Shown piece after piece: positions 11,652-54,976 of a DNA stretch of 64,000 bases; positions within the stretch are counted from its first letter, which is position 1; every line of letters starts with the position of its first letter. The notes beneath the pieces were generated by a model that saw only the letters and a program-made list of their open reading frames with translations, made no database searches and was not told where the DNA came from. A program made the translations under genes and the position numbers. The stretch comes from Gracilibacillus oryzae (GTDB lineage: Bacteria; Bacillota; Bacilli; Bacillales; Amphibacillaceae), in assembly GCF_009498735.1 (NCBI RefSeq), contig NZ_ML762431.1, positions 54,462 through 118,461 of the forward strand. Reading direction: 5' to 3'.

Positions 11652-12887
11652 CTAAGCCCGAATCCACTTCCAAATCTCCTGTGGCGTAGCATTTTTTCCA
11701 TACATCAAAATACCTGTCTTAAAAATCTTACCGGCAAGTTTCATAAAGATCCAGATGCTTATTACTAAAATAACAAGTGAAATGATGATTTCAACCCACG
11801 GCCAAGTGTCCAGCATGGAAAGTCTTAACAGTAATACTCCTGGTGCGGTAAAAGGAACATAGGATCCAATTTGTGCAGTTAGACCGCTTGGATCACTCAC
11901 TACTGGGCCAATAAAGAGAAATGGCAGGAAGGGCAGCATCATGACAAGTCCCTGGAAGTTGCCTGCTGATGACATATCCGCCATCGTAGCTCCAACACCG
12001 ACAAAAAGGGCTGCGTACAGAAAATATCCCAATACAGCTATGGCAATATATAAGAGAAGCTCAGGAACCAGCAGATATTCGAATAAAGGAATATCCAAAT
12101 TCCAAAGGGCGAACGGAATGCCAAATGCTAAAAACACAACAAGCTGCACCATTCCGAGTCCAAAGTAACCAATAATTTTTCCTTGCATCAATTCCCCCGG
12201 TGTTAGAGATGATAACATAATTTCAGCAACTTTATCTTTCTTCTCCTGGGAAGCACTTTGGAAAATATACATCCCTGAGAACACAATCGACAACAGGATA
12301 ATTCCGCCAAATGCCCCAGGTACAATCCGTTTCAAAGTATCTTCATTCGAAAAAGTTCCTTCCTGCTCTCCTTCGCCAGCAGATTCACTGACAGCTGCTT
12401 CTTCGAAAATTAATCCTTGTGAAATAGCGGCAGTTTCTTCCTCTGTCAGACCTAATTGCTGAAGTTGTAATGTTTTTAGAGGAGTGGTTAATGCTTGCAA
12501 TTGATTCATAAAATACGAATTCACATCATCGCTCGTATAAACAGGAAAGACGCCACTTTCCAGAGCAGAATCATCAAGCATGACATAAGCTGTATTCTCC
12601 ATCCCCTCTATTTCTTCTGACATCACCGCTGCACTTTTATCCGTTGCTTCCAAGGCTATATTCAAGTCTAAAACTTCAGCAGTTTCATTAAGTGTATCCA
12701 GAACACCAAGCTGGTCATTGACAAGGACACGAGTTACTGCTTCTTCCCCTTCTGAACCTCCGAAAAGACTACCGATCAGCATAAATCCGATAAATAAAAC
12801 TGGTGTTAAAAATATTCCGATCATGAATGATTTATTTTTCAAGTTTCTTTTCATTTCCCATTTCGCTACCTTTAATGAGTTACGCAT
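11652..12887 (-). CDS. ABC-2 type exporter permease (YhaP/NatB-like)
   Basis: A membrane subunit of an ABC exporter. One transmembrane helix (about residues 22-42) is followed by an extracellular domain of about 130 residues, then five to six helices from about residue 190 to 400, the usual ABC-2 (NatB) arrangement. The 411-residue length fits YhaP/NatB. It overlaps the ATPase gene by 8 nt and is last in a padR operon. NatAB exports Na+ and YhaPQ is uncharacterised as far as I recall, so the substrate is open. Drug, peptide or ion efflux controlled by PadR is a reasonable inference. Confidence 0.85.
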   Translation of the reverse strand: MRNSLKVAKWEMKRNLKNKSFMIGIFLTPVLFIGFMLIGSLFGGSEGEEAVTRVLVNDQLGVLDTLNETAEVLDLNIALEATDKSAAVMSEEIEGMENTAYVMLDDSALESGVFPVYTSDDVNSYFMNQLQALTTPLKTLQLQQLGLTEEETAAISQGLIFEEAAVSESAGEGEQEGTFSNEDTLKRIVPGAFGGIILLSIVFSGMYIFQSASQEKKDKVAEIMLSSLTPGELMQGKIIGYFGLGMVQLVVFLAFGIPFALWNLDIPLFEYLLVPELLLYIAIAVLGYFLYAALFVGVGATMADMSSAGNFQGLVMMLPFLPFLFIGPVVSDPSGLTAQIGSYVPFTAPGVLLLRLSMLDTWPWVEIIISLVILVISIWIFMKLAGKIFKTGILMYGKNATPQEIWKWIRA

Positions 12888-42302: not shown

Positions 42303-42512
42303 AAAAAAAACCATAGTAGTGGTTTTTCAAATTAATTACACTACGTACTATCATACGTGTCCTTGTTATCGGTAGAATGCCGTCAAAGTTTAATCTTTCT
42401 TTCAACTTTGCTTCTCGGAGAGGATTTTCATTATGGTCTTAACGTTGACTTCCAGCAAATCGCCAACTCTCTGTAGATAAGATAATCATAACTACTCTTT
42501 CTCGTCATGGAA
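42303..42512 (-). ncRNA. T-box leader (isoleucine type) of ileS
   Basis: The minus strand shows T-box stem I hallmarks: GAGAAAGAGTAGTT, then CAGAGAGTTGGCGATTTGC and the matching GCTGGAAGTCAAC. A probable specifier ATC (Ile) lies in GAAAATCCTCTCCGAG. The 3' end has a terminator stem GTAGTG (42344-42339)/CACTAC (42321-42316) and a T-run. The usual TGGTACCGCG T-box sequence is replaced by TAGTACGTAGTGTAATT, so pairing with the tRNA acceptor NCCA end would be weakened. Uncharged tRNA-Ile sensing is the expected role. Confidence 0.72.
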
Positions 42513-42532
42513 TTATTTATTTAATTATCACT

Positions 42533-50946: not shown

Positions 50947-51372
50947 ATGATGAGATTTCTAAGAAATTTTGTAATAGTAATCATTGTTCTGGCGGGTCTC
51001 GGTTATGGTGTTTACCACTTTGGTACCAAATGGGCATCTGATAAACTGGTGGAAGTAATATCCACTGAATTGTCCGATAGCGGAGAAATGGAAATGATCA
51101 AACAAACGATTGAAAGTGATCCAGAGTTACAGGCTTTTATAGCTGATGCTGAATCAGTTGATGAAAGTAAATTACCGTTTACCACCAAAGAAGAAGCTAC
51201 CAGAGTTATCATTAATAAGATAGGGATCTCAGAACTCCAAGACATACAATCCAAAGTTCAGCAAGGACAAATGACGAAGGAAGAACTCATACAACAAGCG
51301 GAAAGTAATTTTACCAAAGAGGAAATTGCTGCAATGAAAGTAATCGCTTATAAAGAACTTTACAATAGATAA
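50947..51372 (+). CDS. Membrane-anchored hypothetical protein (141 aa)
   Basis: A basic start, one transmembrane helix (about 6-25, NFVIVIIVLAGLGYGVYHFG) and an acidic, helical extracytoplasmic domain of ~110 residues ending LYNR. AAGGGG lies 8 nt before the ATG at 50947. It has its own promoter region and terminator. Similar single-helix anchored proteins of unknown function are common in bacilli; I cannot name this one. Confidence 0.75.
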   Translation: MMRFLRNFVIVIIVLAGLGYGVYHFGTKWASDKLVEVISTELSDSGEMEMIKQTIESDPELQAFIADAESVDESKLPFTTKEEATRVIINKIGISELQDIQSKVQQGQMTKEELIQQAESNFTKEEIAAMKVIAYKELYNR

Positions 51373-51377
51373 TAGGA

Positions 51378-51407
51378 AAGACACTTCATATCGAGGTGTC
51401 TTTTTTG
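51378..51407 (+). terminator. Terminator after the 50947 gene
   Basis: AAGACAC (51378-51384) pairs with GTGTCTT (51396-51402), followed by TTTT. It starts 6 nt after the stop codon. Confidence 0.85.
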
Positions 51408-51655
51408 TATTAGTATTGCCTGGAAAGATATATTTTACTTTACCCTCTCCTTCTTTATATTTCTTAACATTCTTTATTTCAACAGATATGACAAAAATCT
51501 GGTCGAAATCCCCTATCTTTTGTCATATAAAATTACATTTAATCGACAAAACAATAATGTATGTAACAGTTTCTCACAGAAAGCAAGACGGCTGCCTATT
51601 AACCCAATACAATAAACTCAGCAAGACTAACTAAATTGATGAAGGGAGCAATGTG

Positions 51656-53281
51656 ATGGAAAGTAAACAAGGTAATCAAATGACAAGAAGAGATTTTATT
51701 AATCAGGCAGGTAAGGTCGGTGGCGTTATCGCCGTATGGGGTGCAATGGAGTCGTTAGGCTTATTAGGTCACTCTTTAGTTGGTGCCAAAGAATTTCAAT
51801 CTCCTAAGAAAAGCGATTTAACGGCAGTGAATAAAAATGGAAAAAAAGTGATTATACTAGGTGCAGGTATTGCTGGAATGGCAGCAGCATACGAGTTAAG
51901 GAAAGCTGGATATGATTGCAAAATACTTGAAGCAAGAGATCGTTCCGGCGGCCGGAATTGGACCGTAAGAAATGGGACAGAAGAAACTGAGCTCAAGGGG
52001 GTTAAGCAGACAGCTCATTTTGATAAAGATGTCTATATGAATGCTGGACCTGCACGTATTCCTCAACATCATGTCACTATGGATTATTGTAAAGAATTAG
52101 GAGTTAAACTTGAAGTTTTTGCTAATTCAAATGATTTTGCCTATTTCTATCAAGAAAATGCGGGACCTCTATCTAATCAAAAAATAAGAAAAGGAACTGT
52201 AAAAGCAGATACACGCGGCTATATATCTGAACTGCTAGCAAAATCCACAGATCAGGCAGCCTTAGATACGCCTCTCTCCAAAGAAGACATGGAAAGGTTA
52301 AAGGCTTTTCTTATAGGTGAAGGAGGCTTATCAGCTGATTTGACTTATAAAGGTTCAAGTCGACGCGGCTATAGTGAATTACCGGGAGGAGGCCATCAAT
52401 CCGGAGTATTAGATAATCCTTATAATCTTATCGATCTGCTTCAGTCAGGGATGATGCACAATATTAGCGGCGAGTATAGCTATAACCAGCAACCACTGAT
52501 GTTCCAGCCGGTTGGAGGGATGGACCAAATTCCTAAAGCACTTGAAAAACAGCTGCCTGGGGTCATCACTTTCGGGGCCGAAGTACAAGAGATAAGGCAA
52601 TCAACTGATGGCGTGCGAATCACATACAAAACTAAAGAGAACAGCAAGCCAAAAGAGATCTCTGGCGATTATTGCATATGTACTATTCCACTCTCTGTGT
52701 TAAAAAATATACCAGCAGATTTTACCTCGCCTATGAAACAGGCTATTAAGAGTATCAATTATGCAGCAACTGGTAAAATCGGTCTCCAGTTCAAGAATCG
52801 ATTCTGGGAACAAGATGATCGCATTCTTGGGGGTATAACTACAACTAACATGGATATTTCACAAATCTGGTATCCTTCTCATGATTACTTAAGTCAAAAA
52901 GGTCTATTAATTGGCTACTATAATTTTGGTCAAAATGCTGTTGATTATGGAAATCTATCTCTTAACCAACGGCAAGCCCAGGCGTTAAGCCAAGGATCAA
53001 AAATACATCCTCAGTATTATCGTGATTTCGAAAAATCTTTCTCTGTTGCATGGCACAAAACTAAATATAGTGAAGGCGGATGGGCTTCCTATTCTGCTTC
53101 TGATCTTAAAAACTATTATCCTATTTTAAATGAACCACAAGGGCGGATCCACCTCGCCGGAGAGCATCTTAGTTATTTAACCGGATGGATGGCTGGTGCA
53201 TTTGAATCAGCAAGAATAGCTGTTAGCAGAATTCATGAAGAAGTATTGAAAGAGAATAAGGTAGCATCCAAGGCAGGTTAA
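51656..53281 (+). CDS. Tat-exported flavin amine / L-amino-acid oxidase
   Basis: A secreted FAD enzyme of about 541 residues. The twin-arginine signal MTRRDFINQAGKVGG precedes a hydrophobic stretch to about residue 45. The FAD-binding beta-alpha-beta fold reads VIILGAGIAGMAAAYELRKAG with ARDRSGGRNW; the C-terminal FAD motif is HLAGEHLSYLTGWMAGAFESAR. The substrate domain resembles L-amino-acid oxidases and YobN. It oxidises an amine to an imine, producing H2O2. AAGGGAG is 7 nt before the ATG at 51656. It is followed by an exported RidA-like protein, then tatA and tatC, so the operon supplies its own exporter. Confidence 0.9.
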   Translation: MESKQGNQMTRRDFINQAGKVGGVIAVWGAMESLGLLGHSLVGAKEFQSPKKSDLTAVNKNGKKVIILGAGIAGMAAAYELRKAGYDCKILEARDRSGGRNWTVRNGTEETELKGVKQTAHFDKDVYMNAGPARIPQHHVTMDYCKELGVKLEVFANSNDFAYFYQENAGPLSNQKIRKGTVKADTRGYISELLAKSTDQAALDTPLSKEDMERLKAFLIGEGGLSADLTYKGSSRRGYSELPGGGHQSGVLDNPYNLIDLLQSGMMHNISGEYSYNQQPLMFQPVGGMDQIPKALEKQLPGVITFGAEVQEIRQSTDGVRITYKTKENSKPKEISGDYCICTIPLSVLKNIPADFTSPMKQAIKSINYAATGKIGLQFKNRFWEQDDRILGGITTTNMDISQIWYPSHDYLSQKGLLIGYYNFGQNAVDYGNLSLNQRQAQALSQGSKIHPQYYRDFEKSFSVAWHKTKYSEGGWASYSASDLKNYYPILNEPQGRIHLAGEHLSYLTGWMAGAFESARIAVSRIHEEVLKENKVASKAG

Positions 53282-53305
53282 AAATTATTAATTGGAGTGA
53301 TATAT

Positions 53306-53854
53306 ATGAAAAAAGCTATTCTACTATTGATTACTGCTGTAGTACTTAGTATTTGCTTATTTGCGGGCTTTTCCACTATGGCGACAAGTGAAAAAGCAGC
53401 AATGAAATCCAATAAAATATCGTTTTTTGGAACCCCAACTTCATCCATATCCAGTTCTGTTAGTATACCTCATCATTACCATCGATTATTATATAGCGGT
53501 ACAGTCCCTCCTCTTTTAAATGAGGATGGAAAAACCACTTATGAAAAGTATGGTAATACGGAAGAACAAGCTGTTGGTATACTTAATAAATTCAAGGAGG
53601 ATCTGGAAGTTAAAGGACTTTCTTTATCTGATATCGTCTACTTACGTGTATATGTTGCCCCAGATCCAAACAAAGGAAATGAACCAGATTATGCGGGATG
53701 GTTTAATGCATATGCCCAGTTCTTTAATACAGAAGAAAACCCTACTAAGACAGCACGTTCCACGGTAGGTGTAGAAAGTTTAGTTAGTCCAGATTTCTTA
53801 ATTGAGATTGAAGCTGAAGTAGCTTATAAAAAGTGGCAATTAAAAGACAATTAA
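53306..53854 (+). CDS. Exported RidA/YjgF-family imine deaminase
   Basis: A protein of about 182 residues: N-terminal signal/anchor helix (AILLLITAVVLSICLFAGF), a ~30-residue Ser-rich linker, then a RidA domain. The domain keeps the family Arg in TARSTVGVESL (equivalent to E. coli RidA Arg105) and Glu in IEIEAEVAY, with LLYSGTVPP and LSDIVYLRVYVA strands. RidA enzymes hydrolyse reactive imines/enamines to carbonyls and ammonia. RidA is normally cytosolic, so the signal is unusual. GGAG is 8 nt before the ATG at 53306. It lies 24 nt after the oxidase gene, whose imine product it may hydrolyse. Confidence 0.85.
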   Translation: MKKAILLLITAVVLSICLFAGFSTMATSEKAAMKSNKISFFGTPTSSISSSVSIPHHYHRLLYSGTVPPLLNEDGKTTYEKYGNTEEQAVGILNKFKEDLEVKGLSLSDIVYLRVYVAPDPNKGNEPDYAGWFNAYAQFFNTEENPTKTARSTVGVESLVSPDFLIEIEAEVAYKKWQLKDN

Positions 53855-53869
53855 TAAAGGAGTGATAGT

Positions 53870-54070
53870 ATGTTGCAAAGTGTTGGCGTTCCTGGGTTAA
53901 TTTTAATTTTGATAATTGCACTAGTCATTTTTGGACCATCCAAATTACCTGCTATTGGCCGGGCATTTGGAAACACTCTATTTGAATTTAAAAATGCTAC
54001 TAAAGAATTGATAGCAGATAGCGGAAATGAGGAGACTAAGGTGAAAAATGAAAAGAAAAGCGAGAGTTGA
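53870..54070 (+). CDS. tatA: Sec-independent protein translocase TatA
   Basis: A 66-residue TatA: short N-terminus, one membrane helix ([16 protein letters not shown]), the hinge [11 protein letters not shown], an amphipathic helix and a charged tail. AAGGAG precedes the ATG. It is 15 nt after the RidA-like gene. TatA oligomers form the passage for folded proteins recognised by TatC. Gene order with a Tat substrate resembles the dedicated TatAd/Cd-PhoD and TatAy/Cy-EfeB units of Bacillus subtilis. Confidence 0.93.
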
Positions 54071-54097
54071 ACGTGTATCAATAAAAGTATGTTAACA

Positions 54098-54131
54098 AAG
54101 TAGATGGGGCAACTCGTCTACTTCTTTTTTT
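54098..54131 (+). terminator. Terminator-like hairpin between tatA and tatC
   Basis: AAGTAGA (54098-54104) pairs with TCTACTT (54117-54123), followed by C and seven T. Lying inside the operon, it may stop part of the transcription so that TatA exceeds TatC. Confidence 0.75.
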
Positions 54132-54148
54132 AATAGGAGGCGTTTACT

Positions 54149-54877
54149 ATGGAGAAAAAAGAATTAAACCTTATCGGACACCTGGAGGAATTGCATAAAC
54201 GAATTATTATCGTATTGTTAGCCTTTGTCGTCTTTTTTATCACTTCATTTATCTTTGTCCAGGATATCTATAACTGGCTCATCAGGGACTTTAACGGTAA
54301 GTTATCTGTTTTAGGACCTAGTGATATTTTATGGGTCTATATGATGATTGCCGGTGTCTTTGCAATAGCTGCTACTATTCCTATAATAGCCTATCAAATT
54401 TGGAAGTTTATCACTCCAGCATTAACAAAAGAAGAAAGCAAGCTGACATTAGGTTTTATCCCTGGTTTATTTATCTTGTTTATCTTTGGAATCAGCTTTG
54501 GCTATTTCGTATTGTTTCCCATTGTATTGGAATTTTTACTCACCATTTCTGCCGGTCAATTTAATACCATGTTTACAGCAGATAAGTACTTTCTATTTAT
54601 GCTGAATTTAAGCTTACCATTGGGATTCCTTTTTGAGATGCCATTGTTAGTTATGTTTTTAACCCGCTTAGGTGTACTTAACCCAGTTAGATTGGCAAAG
54701 GCGAGGAAACTCTCCTATTTCTCACTCGTTATCATATCTGTTTTAATAACCCCTCCTGATTTTATTTCAGATATATTAGTAATTGTTCCTTTACTACTCT
54801 TATATGAGTTAAGCATTCTTATATCCAAGGTCGTTTATAAAAAAAGACTTGCCACGGAAGGAGAGATGCTGGCATAA
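54149..54877 (+). CDS. tatC: Sec-independent protein translocase TatC
   Basis: A 242-residue polytopic receptor for twin-arginine signals with six membrane helices. The family N-terminus is LIGHLEELHKRI; the first external loop has VLGPSDILWVYMM; GFLFEMPLLVMFLTRLG and ITPPDFISDILVIVPLLLLYE complete the pattern. AGGAGG precedes the ATG. It is last in the oxidase operon and is followed by a terminator. It forms a minimal TatAC translocase with the upstream TatA. Confidence 0.94.
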   Translation: MEKKELNLIGHLEELHKRIIIVLLAFVVFFITSFIFVQDIYNWLIRDFNGKLSVLGPSDILWVYMMIAGVFAIAATIPIIAYQIWKFITPALTKEESKLTLGFIPGLFILFIFGISFGYFVLFPIVLEFLLTISAGQFNTMFTADKYFLFMLNLSLPLGFLFEMPLLVMFLTRLGVLNPVRLAKARKLSYFSLVIISVLITPPDFISDILVIVPLLLLYELSILISKVVYKKRLATEGEMLA

Positions 54878-54948
54878 TATATTTACAGATAATGAGCTTT
54901 TAAGAGAGTGTATGTCAACAAAATTACCTATCTATAGATAATTTAAGT

Positions 54949-54976
54949 CCTCCAAAAAGGAGGGCCCTCTTTTTTT
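54949..54976 (+). terminator. Terminator of the oxidase-Tat operon
   Basis: CCTCC and GGAGG form a short GC-rich stem around AAAAA, followed by GCCCTC and seven T. A perfect TTGCACAGT/ACTGTGCAA hairpin of unknown role lies at 55008-55033. Confidence 0.75.

Follow-up and report, generated by a model that had tools for sequence, protein, structure and literature searches.

The 64,000-nucleotide stretch of the Gracilibacillus oryzae genome analysed here (contig NZ_ML762431.1, positions 54,462 to 118,461; hereafter the window) contains four adjoining open reading frames (ORFs), all on the + strand, that encode in order an L-amino acid oxidase (LAAO) with a twin-arginine signal, a Rid protein with a predicted export signal of its own, and the twin-arginine translocation (Tat) proteins TatA and TatC. 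A sequence-only reading of the window had described four tightly spaced genes forming a self-contained extracellular deamination system, and the ORFs, their Pfam families (Amino_oxidase, 3.2e-57; Ribonuc_L-PSP, the Rid family, 3e-10; TatA_B_E, 7.5e-20; TatC, 5.6e-58) and the spacers of 24, 15 and 78 nt all confirm that layout. With both the TatA and the TatC families present, the locus has a minimal TatAC. Its features are as follows.

51372..51408, +: left-border terminator-like hairpin, belonging to the upstream gene
51521..51537, +: predicted GlnR/TnrA box 1, exact match to TGTNAN7TNACA
51562..51578, +: predicted GlnR/TnrA box 2, exact, at -94 from the oxidase ATG
51656..53281, +: LAAO gene (flavin adenine dinucleotide, FAD; twin-arginine signal), alternative GTG start at 51653
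51683..51700, +: twin-arginine motif TRRDFI
53306..53854, +: Rid protein (Rid3-like) with N-terminal Sec-type signal peptide
53306..53383, +: Rid signal peptide, cleavage after residue 26 judged by eye
53870..54070, +: TatA
54098..54123, +: hairpin between tatA and tatC, spanning 54098-54133 with its T run
54149..54877, +: TatC
54947..54965, +: right-border terminator-like hairpin

The terminator-like hairpins at the two borders make the four genes look like a single transcription unit, within a 4.5-kb stretch that has six terminator-like sites where 2.8 are expected; a sigma-70 promoter scan was at chance level (16 observed, 15.6 expected).

That these genes form a real, conserved and coherent module is clearest in the Paenibacillales (here the order of Paenibacillus catalpae, 296 genomes), where an LAAO was found in 54 genomes at a cut-off of E <= 1e-60, followed on its own strand by Rid and tatA in every one of the 54. 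A tatC lies alongside in 42 of these loci, divergent and upstream in 41 and downstream in one; two Cohnella and P. catalpae, for example, have LAAO-Rid-tatA with tatC divergent. The window's own gene order, with all four genes, recurs in four other records of Bacillaceae, those of Alkalihalobacterium elongatum, A. chitinilyticum, Bacillus solitudinis and Metabacillus dongyingensis, in the last of which the whole operon lies on the 362-kb plasmid pBY2G20 (L134), each gene being named singly in the record. LAAOs are 54-70% identical to that of the window across both gene arrangements, and the conservation of gene order that the sequence-only reading had named as one of its tests is found both in the Paenibacillales loci and in these four records. 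In 249 genomes of the window's order, the Rid and LAAO searches agree in matching three genomes, that of the window and those with the Alkalihalobacterium loci L011 and L012. A Rid profile at E <= 1e-10 matched the window's genome and no other in a phylum sample of 398, and scanning named genomes yielded 11 loci with Rid, five being the orphans discussed below. This patchy spread, together with the plasmid copy, suggests that the module has moved horizontally. On pBY2G20, ger genes and a gene annotated as a B1 metallo-beta-lactamase lie close to the operon. Counts given below over 59 loci refer to the window, L011-L016 and L081-L133 minus L088; L080 and L088 were dropped as coming from the same genomes as L016 and L014.

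The window oxidase has a full-length Amino_oxidase domain (PF01593 group) with an FAD motif and, at its N-terminus, the TRRDFI motif, both of which had been read from the sequence earlier; a motif of the same class, [ST]RRx[FL], is present at the oxidase N-terminus in 59 of 59 loci. Its best solved relative is the Rhodococcus opacus LAAO (PDB 2jae, E 1e-120), with about 480 residues aligned (55-534). Residues R135 and Y423 (542-aa numbering), which align with an Arg and a Tyr of 2jae and are invariant in all seven aligned sequences, window included, are what we take to be the amino-acid carboxylate binders of the LAAO class. Because the enzyme is LAAO-like, its expected substrates are amino acids and not polyamines, which narrows the earlier designation as an amine or amino acid oxidase; the predicted activity is the oxidation of L-amino acids with O2, giving hydrogen peroxide (H2O2). 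No NCBIfam family is above its cut-off for the LAAO among the 25 of 53 matches listed, and a genome scan with Pfam TAT_signal, which gave two weak matches and did not list the LAAO itself, is uninformative on other Tat substrates. AlphaFold2 models were too weak for use (mean predicted local distance difference test score, pLDDT, of 43 for the LAAO and 62 for Rid).

Judged by profile scores, the window Rid is closer to Rid3 members than to RidA: it is nearest to PFL1385 and PSPTO3006 (best sequence match 1.4e-20, profile 1.4e-28), and two Rid3 chains score 103 and 91 bits against at most 38 bits for the other 14 chains listed. No NCBIfam family is above cut-off among the two matches listed for Rid. 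The conserved Arg and Glu to which the sequence-only reading had pointed (R151; E167 and E169) do not vary among the 11 sequences aligned, of which the window's is one, and the catalytic Arg motif is present in 58 of the 59 Rids, the exception (L094) being a truncated frame. RidA genes, and at times those for Rid3, occur in clusters with genes for FAD amine oxidases (PMC4433059), and the Rid3 proteins PFL_1385 and PSPTO_3006 (PDB 9bkc, 9bka), which keep the Arg as the window Rid does, lower semicarbazone formation with snake LAAO and act on LAAO-derived imines and on iminoarginine (PMC5619798). Deamination of imines, known from these relatives, is predicted for the window Rid. The two relatives were studied as purified proteins, whereas the Rids here bear a signal, a word absent from that paper's text (PMC5619798). 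A strongly hydrophobic N-terminal stretch, scored as mean hydropathy >=1.6 over 11 residues, is present in 57 of the 59 Rids, where by eye it often ends in an AxA-like site, and the remaining two have a similar signal-like start once a longer frame is used. The export signal proposed earlier for Rid is borne out by these counts, and at the level of sequence Rid does not look cytosolic. Since no twin-arginine motif is seen in the signal of the window Rid, we expect Rid to leave by the Sec pathway and the oxidase by Tat, and the Tat pair of the module would then serve the oxidase only.

The Tat genes themselves appear to have more than one history. The TatCs compared from the Paenibacillales arrangement are just 35-38% identical to the window TatC, and in a tree of 14 module TatCs (chosen by us from 47) with 25 other TatCs, the module TatCs lie on both sides of a split with 100/100 support, the bootstrap being not quite settled. 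A single clade of 15 module TatCs, the Metabacillus TatC having been added for this tree, is rejected by the approximately unbiased (AU) test (p 1.4e-7, on a quick tree that drew a long-branch warning). From the second TatC tree two rows, HK_G000_C2 and HK_G649_1960k, were left out, one being long and the other very short. Branches with good support call for a minimum of two changes between module and other labels on the TatC tree, and the tree itself needs five. Most simply, this would mean that on more than one occasion tatC came to lie beside LAAO-Rid-tatA, either by joining the set or by replacing an older tatC; the reverse, that the other tatC genes descend from module ones, is conceivable. 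A substrate-linked Tat is made likely by the finding that one and the same LAAO-Rid-tatA set is accompanied by TatCs from different lineages. In this form the earlier idea of a substrate-dedicated Tat survives, and the set would be a case of a substrate gene and tat genes seemingly joined more than once. Minimal TatAC pairs tied to a substrate, as in the module, are known from Bacillus subtilis (TatAdCd with PhoD, TatAyCy with EfeB/YwbN; PMC3827258), although these units serve substrates other than the LAAO of the module; a word search of the main text of that TatC survey (PMC3827258) found no mention of an amine oxidase or amino acid oxidase. Export of the LAAO is predicted to be TatC-dependent and to use its own Tat pair. 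An alternative is that a general tatAC operon happens to lie beside an unrelated oxidase, with no dedicated function; the window's genome carries a second tatC, which could serve the LAAO too, but LAAO-Rid-tatA linkage in 54 of 54 loci makes this very unlikely, and with separate TatC lineages beside the same set and the complete set on a plasmid we regard it as scarcely credible.

The tatA-tatC spacer of the window contains a hairpin of 11 pairs with T residues after it, and hairpins occur at the same position in Metabacillus, one Alkalihalobacterium and B. solitudinis. It is possible that this hairpin is an attenuator setting TatA above TatC, and as the genome's other tatA-tatC spacer folds as well, it may be a general device to that end.

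Directly before the window oxidase lie two exact boxes, 41 bp apart, of the published GlnR/TnrA consensus TGTNAN7TNACA (PMC6191146, PMC9948412, PMC3412718). An exact box is present within 320 bases upstream of the LAAO in 51 of 55 Paenibacillales loci, with 45 exact sites at -105 to -86, as compared with 1.2% of first-order random sequences and with none across 82,500 bases coding for LAAOs; there are also two exact boxes in Metabacillus and one in B. solitudinis. The published consensus was used for these final counts, and a longer one in early scans, in which 46 of the 55 Paenibacillales loci matched at no more than one mismatch and four of the eight tests at single loci gave weak results (random sequences doing equally well in 5-15% of cases, or in 2.5% for CohN). 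In the longer-consensus count the fixed positions are the most conserved and two N positions the least, and there are 40 different 17-mers among 51 rows, which as relatives are not independent. A third exact match in the window lies at 12201-12217. We predict that the operon belongs to the GlnR/TnrA regulon, presumably being switched on when nitrogen is short.

Orphan Rids offer a view of the protein apart from its oxidase. Rid is present in 13 of 36 genomes of the genus of Peribacillus simplex RUG2-6 (G644; loci L064-L077), and remnants of LAAO, tatA or tatC lie beside eight of the 13 (tblastn, E <= 1e-3). Four others (L070, L073, L075 and L076) have only a TatA match of 13-14 residues (E 0.008-0.022), and L069 has no tblastn remnant, although at the DNA level parts of one can be aligned to it. 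Eleven of the 13 are intact, L072 having an internal stop and L076 a frameshift; in G678 a second, broken Rid copy at the opposite contig end may be an assembly overlap. The ratio of nonsynonymous to synonymous substitution rates (dN/dS) for the mature part of the 11 intact orphans is 0.185 (bootstrap 0.115-0.267), with 0.171 (0.112-0.264) for the six that share an upstream junction by eye (L064-L069), 0.306 (0.119-0.765) for the three without an LAAO remnant, and a less constrained signal part (median 0.75). By this measure the orphan Rid is under purifying selection, and an intact, selected Rid without this LAAO implies a use that outlives the oxidase. Nitrogen boxes are absent from all 12 orphan loci tested, and at L007, the single locus to which Pfam was applied, Rid lies next to genes for a GerAC-type protein and sulfite reductase. 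Five orphan-Rid genomes lack a full LAAO orthologue and each has a relative of 34-35% identity, about 8 kb from Rid in four (L054-L057) and on another contig in the fifth; the four LAAO-like proteins that were read show no recognisable signal, that of L054 being an Amino_oxidase by Pfam, and one Peribacillus genome has a further LAAO-like protein of this type. Perhaps the orphan Rid works with another imine source. These relics bear on the possibility that Rid, rather than hydrolysing imines, serves the exported oxidase as a structural partner or holder in the manner of M-beta of Chlamydomonas. A periplasmic LAAO/RidA complex in Chlamydomonas (cited in PMC5053998) and the 54/54 linkage of LAAO and Rid speak for such a role; the near-universal catalytic Arg motif and the selection that keeps Rid without this LAAO speak against it, and we find it doubtful, if deserving of some weight. 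The Peribacillus relics are natural material for asking what job Rid does without its oxidase.

Given the conserved GlnR/TnrA boxes, nitrogen scavenging is the best role for the module, and we consider it probable that this is a nitrogen-controlled module that takes nitrogen from amino acids outside the cell by way of a substrate-linked Tat. Nitrogen shortage would lead GlnR/TnrA to act at the two boxes and the operon to be transcribed; the LAAO would fold with FAD in the cytosol and exit via Tat, with TatA and TatC supplied by the operon; outside the cell it would turn L-amino acids into imino acids and H2O2; and the Sec-exported Rid, free or bound to the LAAO, would speed hydrolysis of the imino acids to keto acid and ammonium, which the cell would take up. 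Imine deamination would in this way be placed outside the cell and tied to nitrogen control. The role fits as it does for LAO1 of Chlamydomonas, a periplasmic LAAO that yields ammonium under nitrogen starvation (PMC10805672). The same export signal on the oxidase, with the production of H2O2 expected of the LAAO class, would also suit a surface weapon that makes H2O2 and keto acids against competitors, Rid limiting self-damage by imines; nitrogen-regulator boxes fit scavenging better, none of the four genes is for peroxide defence (the flanks were read by eye only), and we think a weapon unlikely.

Several observations weigh against scavenging by this route. One is that Peribacillus keeps Rid without this LAAO, which is the main difficulty for the simplest form of the earlier model, since imine clearing for this LAAO is then not the sole use of Rid. 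Imines also hydrolyse in water, which bears on the need for an enzyme to do so outside the cell. In the window's genus (17 genomes) the LAAO is found only in the window's genome, one other having a 33% match. The three exact boxes in 64 kb compare with 1.69 expected, and 26 of 100 shuffles have as many; because this total is not unusual, the case for the window's boxes is one of their position and of relatives, among which neither of the two Alkalihalobacterium loci has an exact box. The main text of a P. polymyxa GlnR-binding study names neither the oxidase nor tatC, the module status of its strain not having been tested. Finally, tatC was not found in the retrieved stretch of 12 of the 54 Paenibacillales loci (for L132 the contig ends soon after tatA), and because of these loci and the second tatC in the window's genome, self-contained was too strong a term. 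Overall, the earlier interpretation is supported in part: it keeps its conserved gene order, its Rid signal and a likely substrate-linked Tat, but it overstated self-containment, its rarity of Rid outside the cell does not fit this lineage, and polyamines are not the expected substrates.

Extracellular pairing of LAAO and Rid is a kind already known from Chlamydomonas and Gluconacetobacter. In Chlamydomonas, LAO1 (M-alpha) and the RidA-like M-beta resemble the proposed module as an extracellular LAAO and Rid linked to nitrogen starvation, ammonium, H2O2 and keto acid (PMC10805672, PMC5053998), although the system is eukaryotic, no Tat translocase is described in the extracts of these papers, and the likeness is one of description, not of tested homology. 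The lao-cccA-ridA cluster of Gluconacetobacter diazotrophicus likewise joins the gene of a Tat-signal LAAO with a Rid gene, but has a cytochrome c gene between them and was studied for auxin synthesis (PMC5053998). In three alphaproteobacterial clusters (L135, L136 and L137, opened from 21 plasmid records matched), oxidase, cytochrome c and Rid adjoin and the Rids bear Sec-like signals by eye; unlike the module, these have cytochrome c and no tat genes among them. These clusters and the Chlamydomonas case, together with the signal-bearing Rid that is the rule in the present lineage, run counter to the earlier statement that the family is rarely found outside the cell. The cytochrome c gene, between oxidase and Rid in all three clusters opened, would fit a respiratory amino-acid dehydrogenase that hands electrons to a membrane chain and not to O2; the module has no electron-carrier gene among its four, its nearest solved relative (2jae) is an oxidase, and a dehydrogenase seems to us quite unlikely here. 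An LAAO tree was built from 21 of the 59 loci together with Metabacillus and three rows from alphaproteobacteria, a sampling that does not test monophyly of the module LAAOs. In the open-licence literature searched, which excludes subscription papers, the LAAO-Rid-tatA(C) set is unreported and neither Tat genes in such a set, nor nitrogen boxes, nor the orphan Rid were found in print; what is new here is the addition of built-in Tat genes and nitrogen boxes to the known pairing of LAAO and Rid.

A wider reading, which we put forward tentatively and find possible rather than probable, is that the exported Rids form an extracellular branch of the family with a surface job of their own. In Bacillota this branch would have been associated with an LAAO under nitrogen control that gained its own Tat more than once, and Peribacillus would have kept Rid alone after losing the oxidase, the Tat pair and the boxes.

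Elsewhere in the window there is a T-box leader at 42327-42517 on the - strand (RF00230, 95.6 bits), which is the sole Rfam match.

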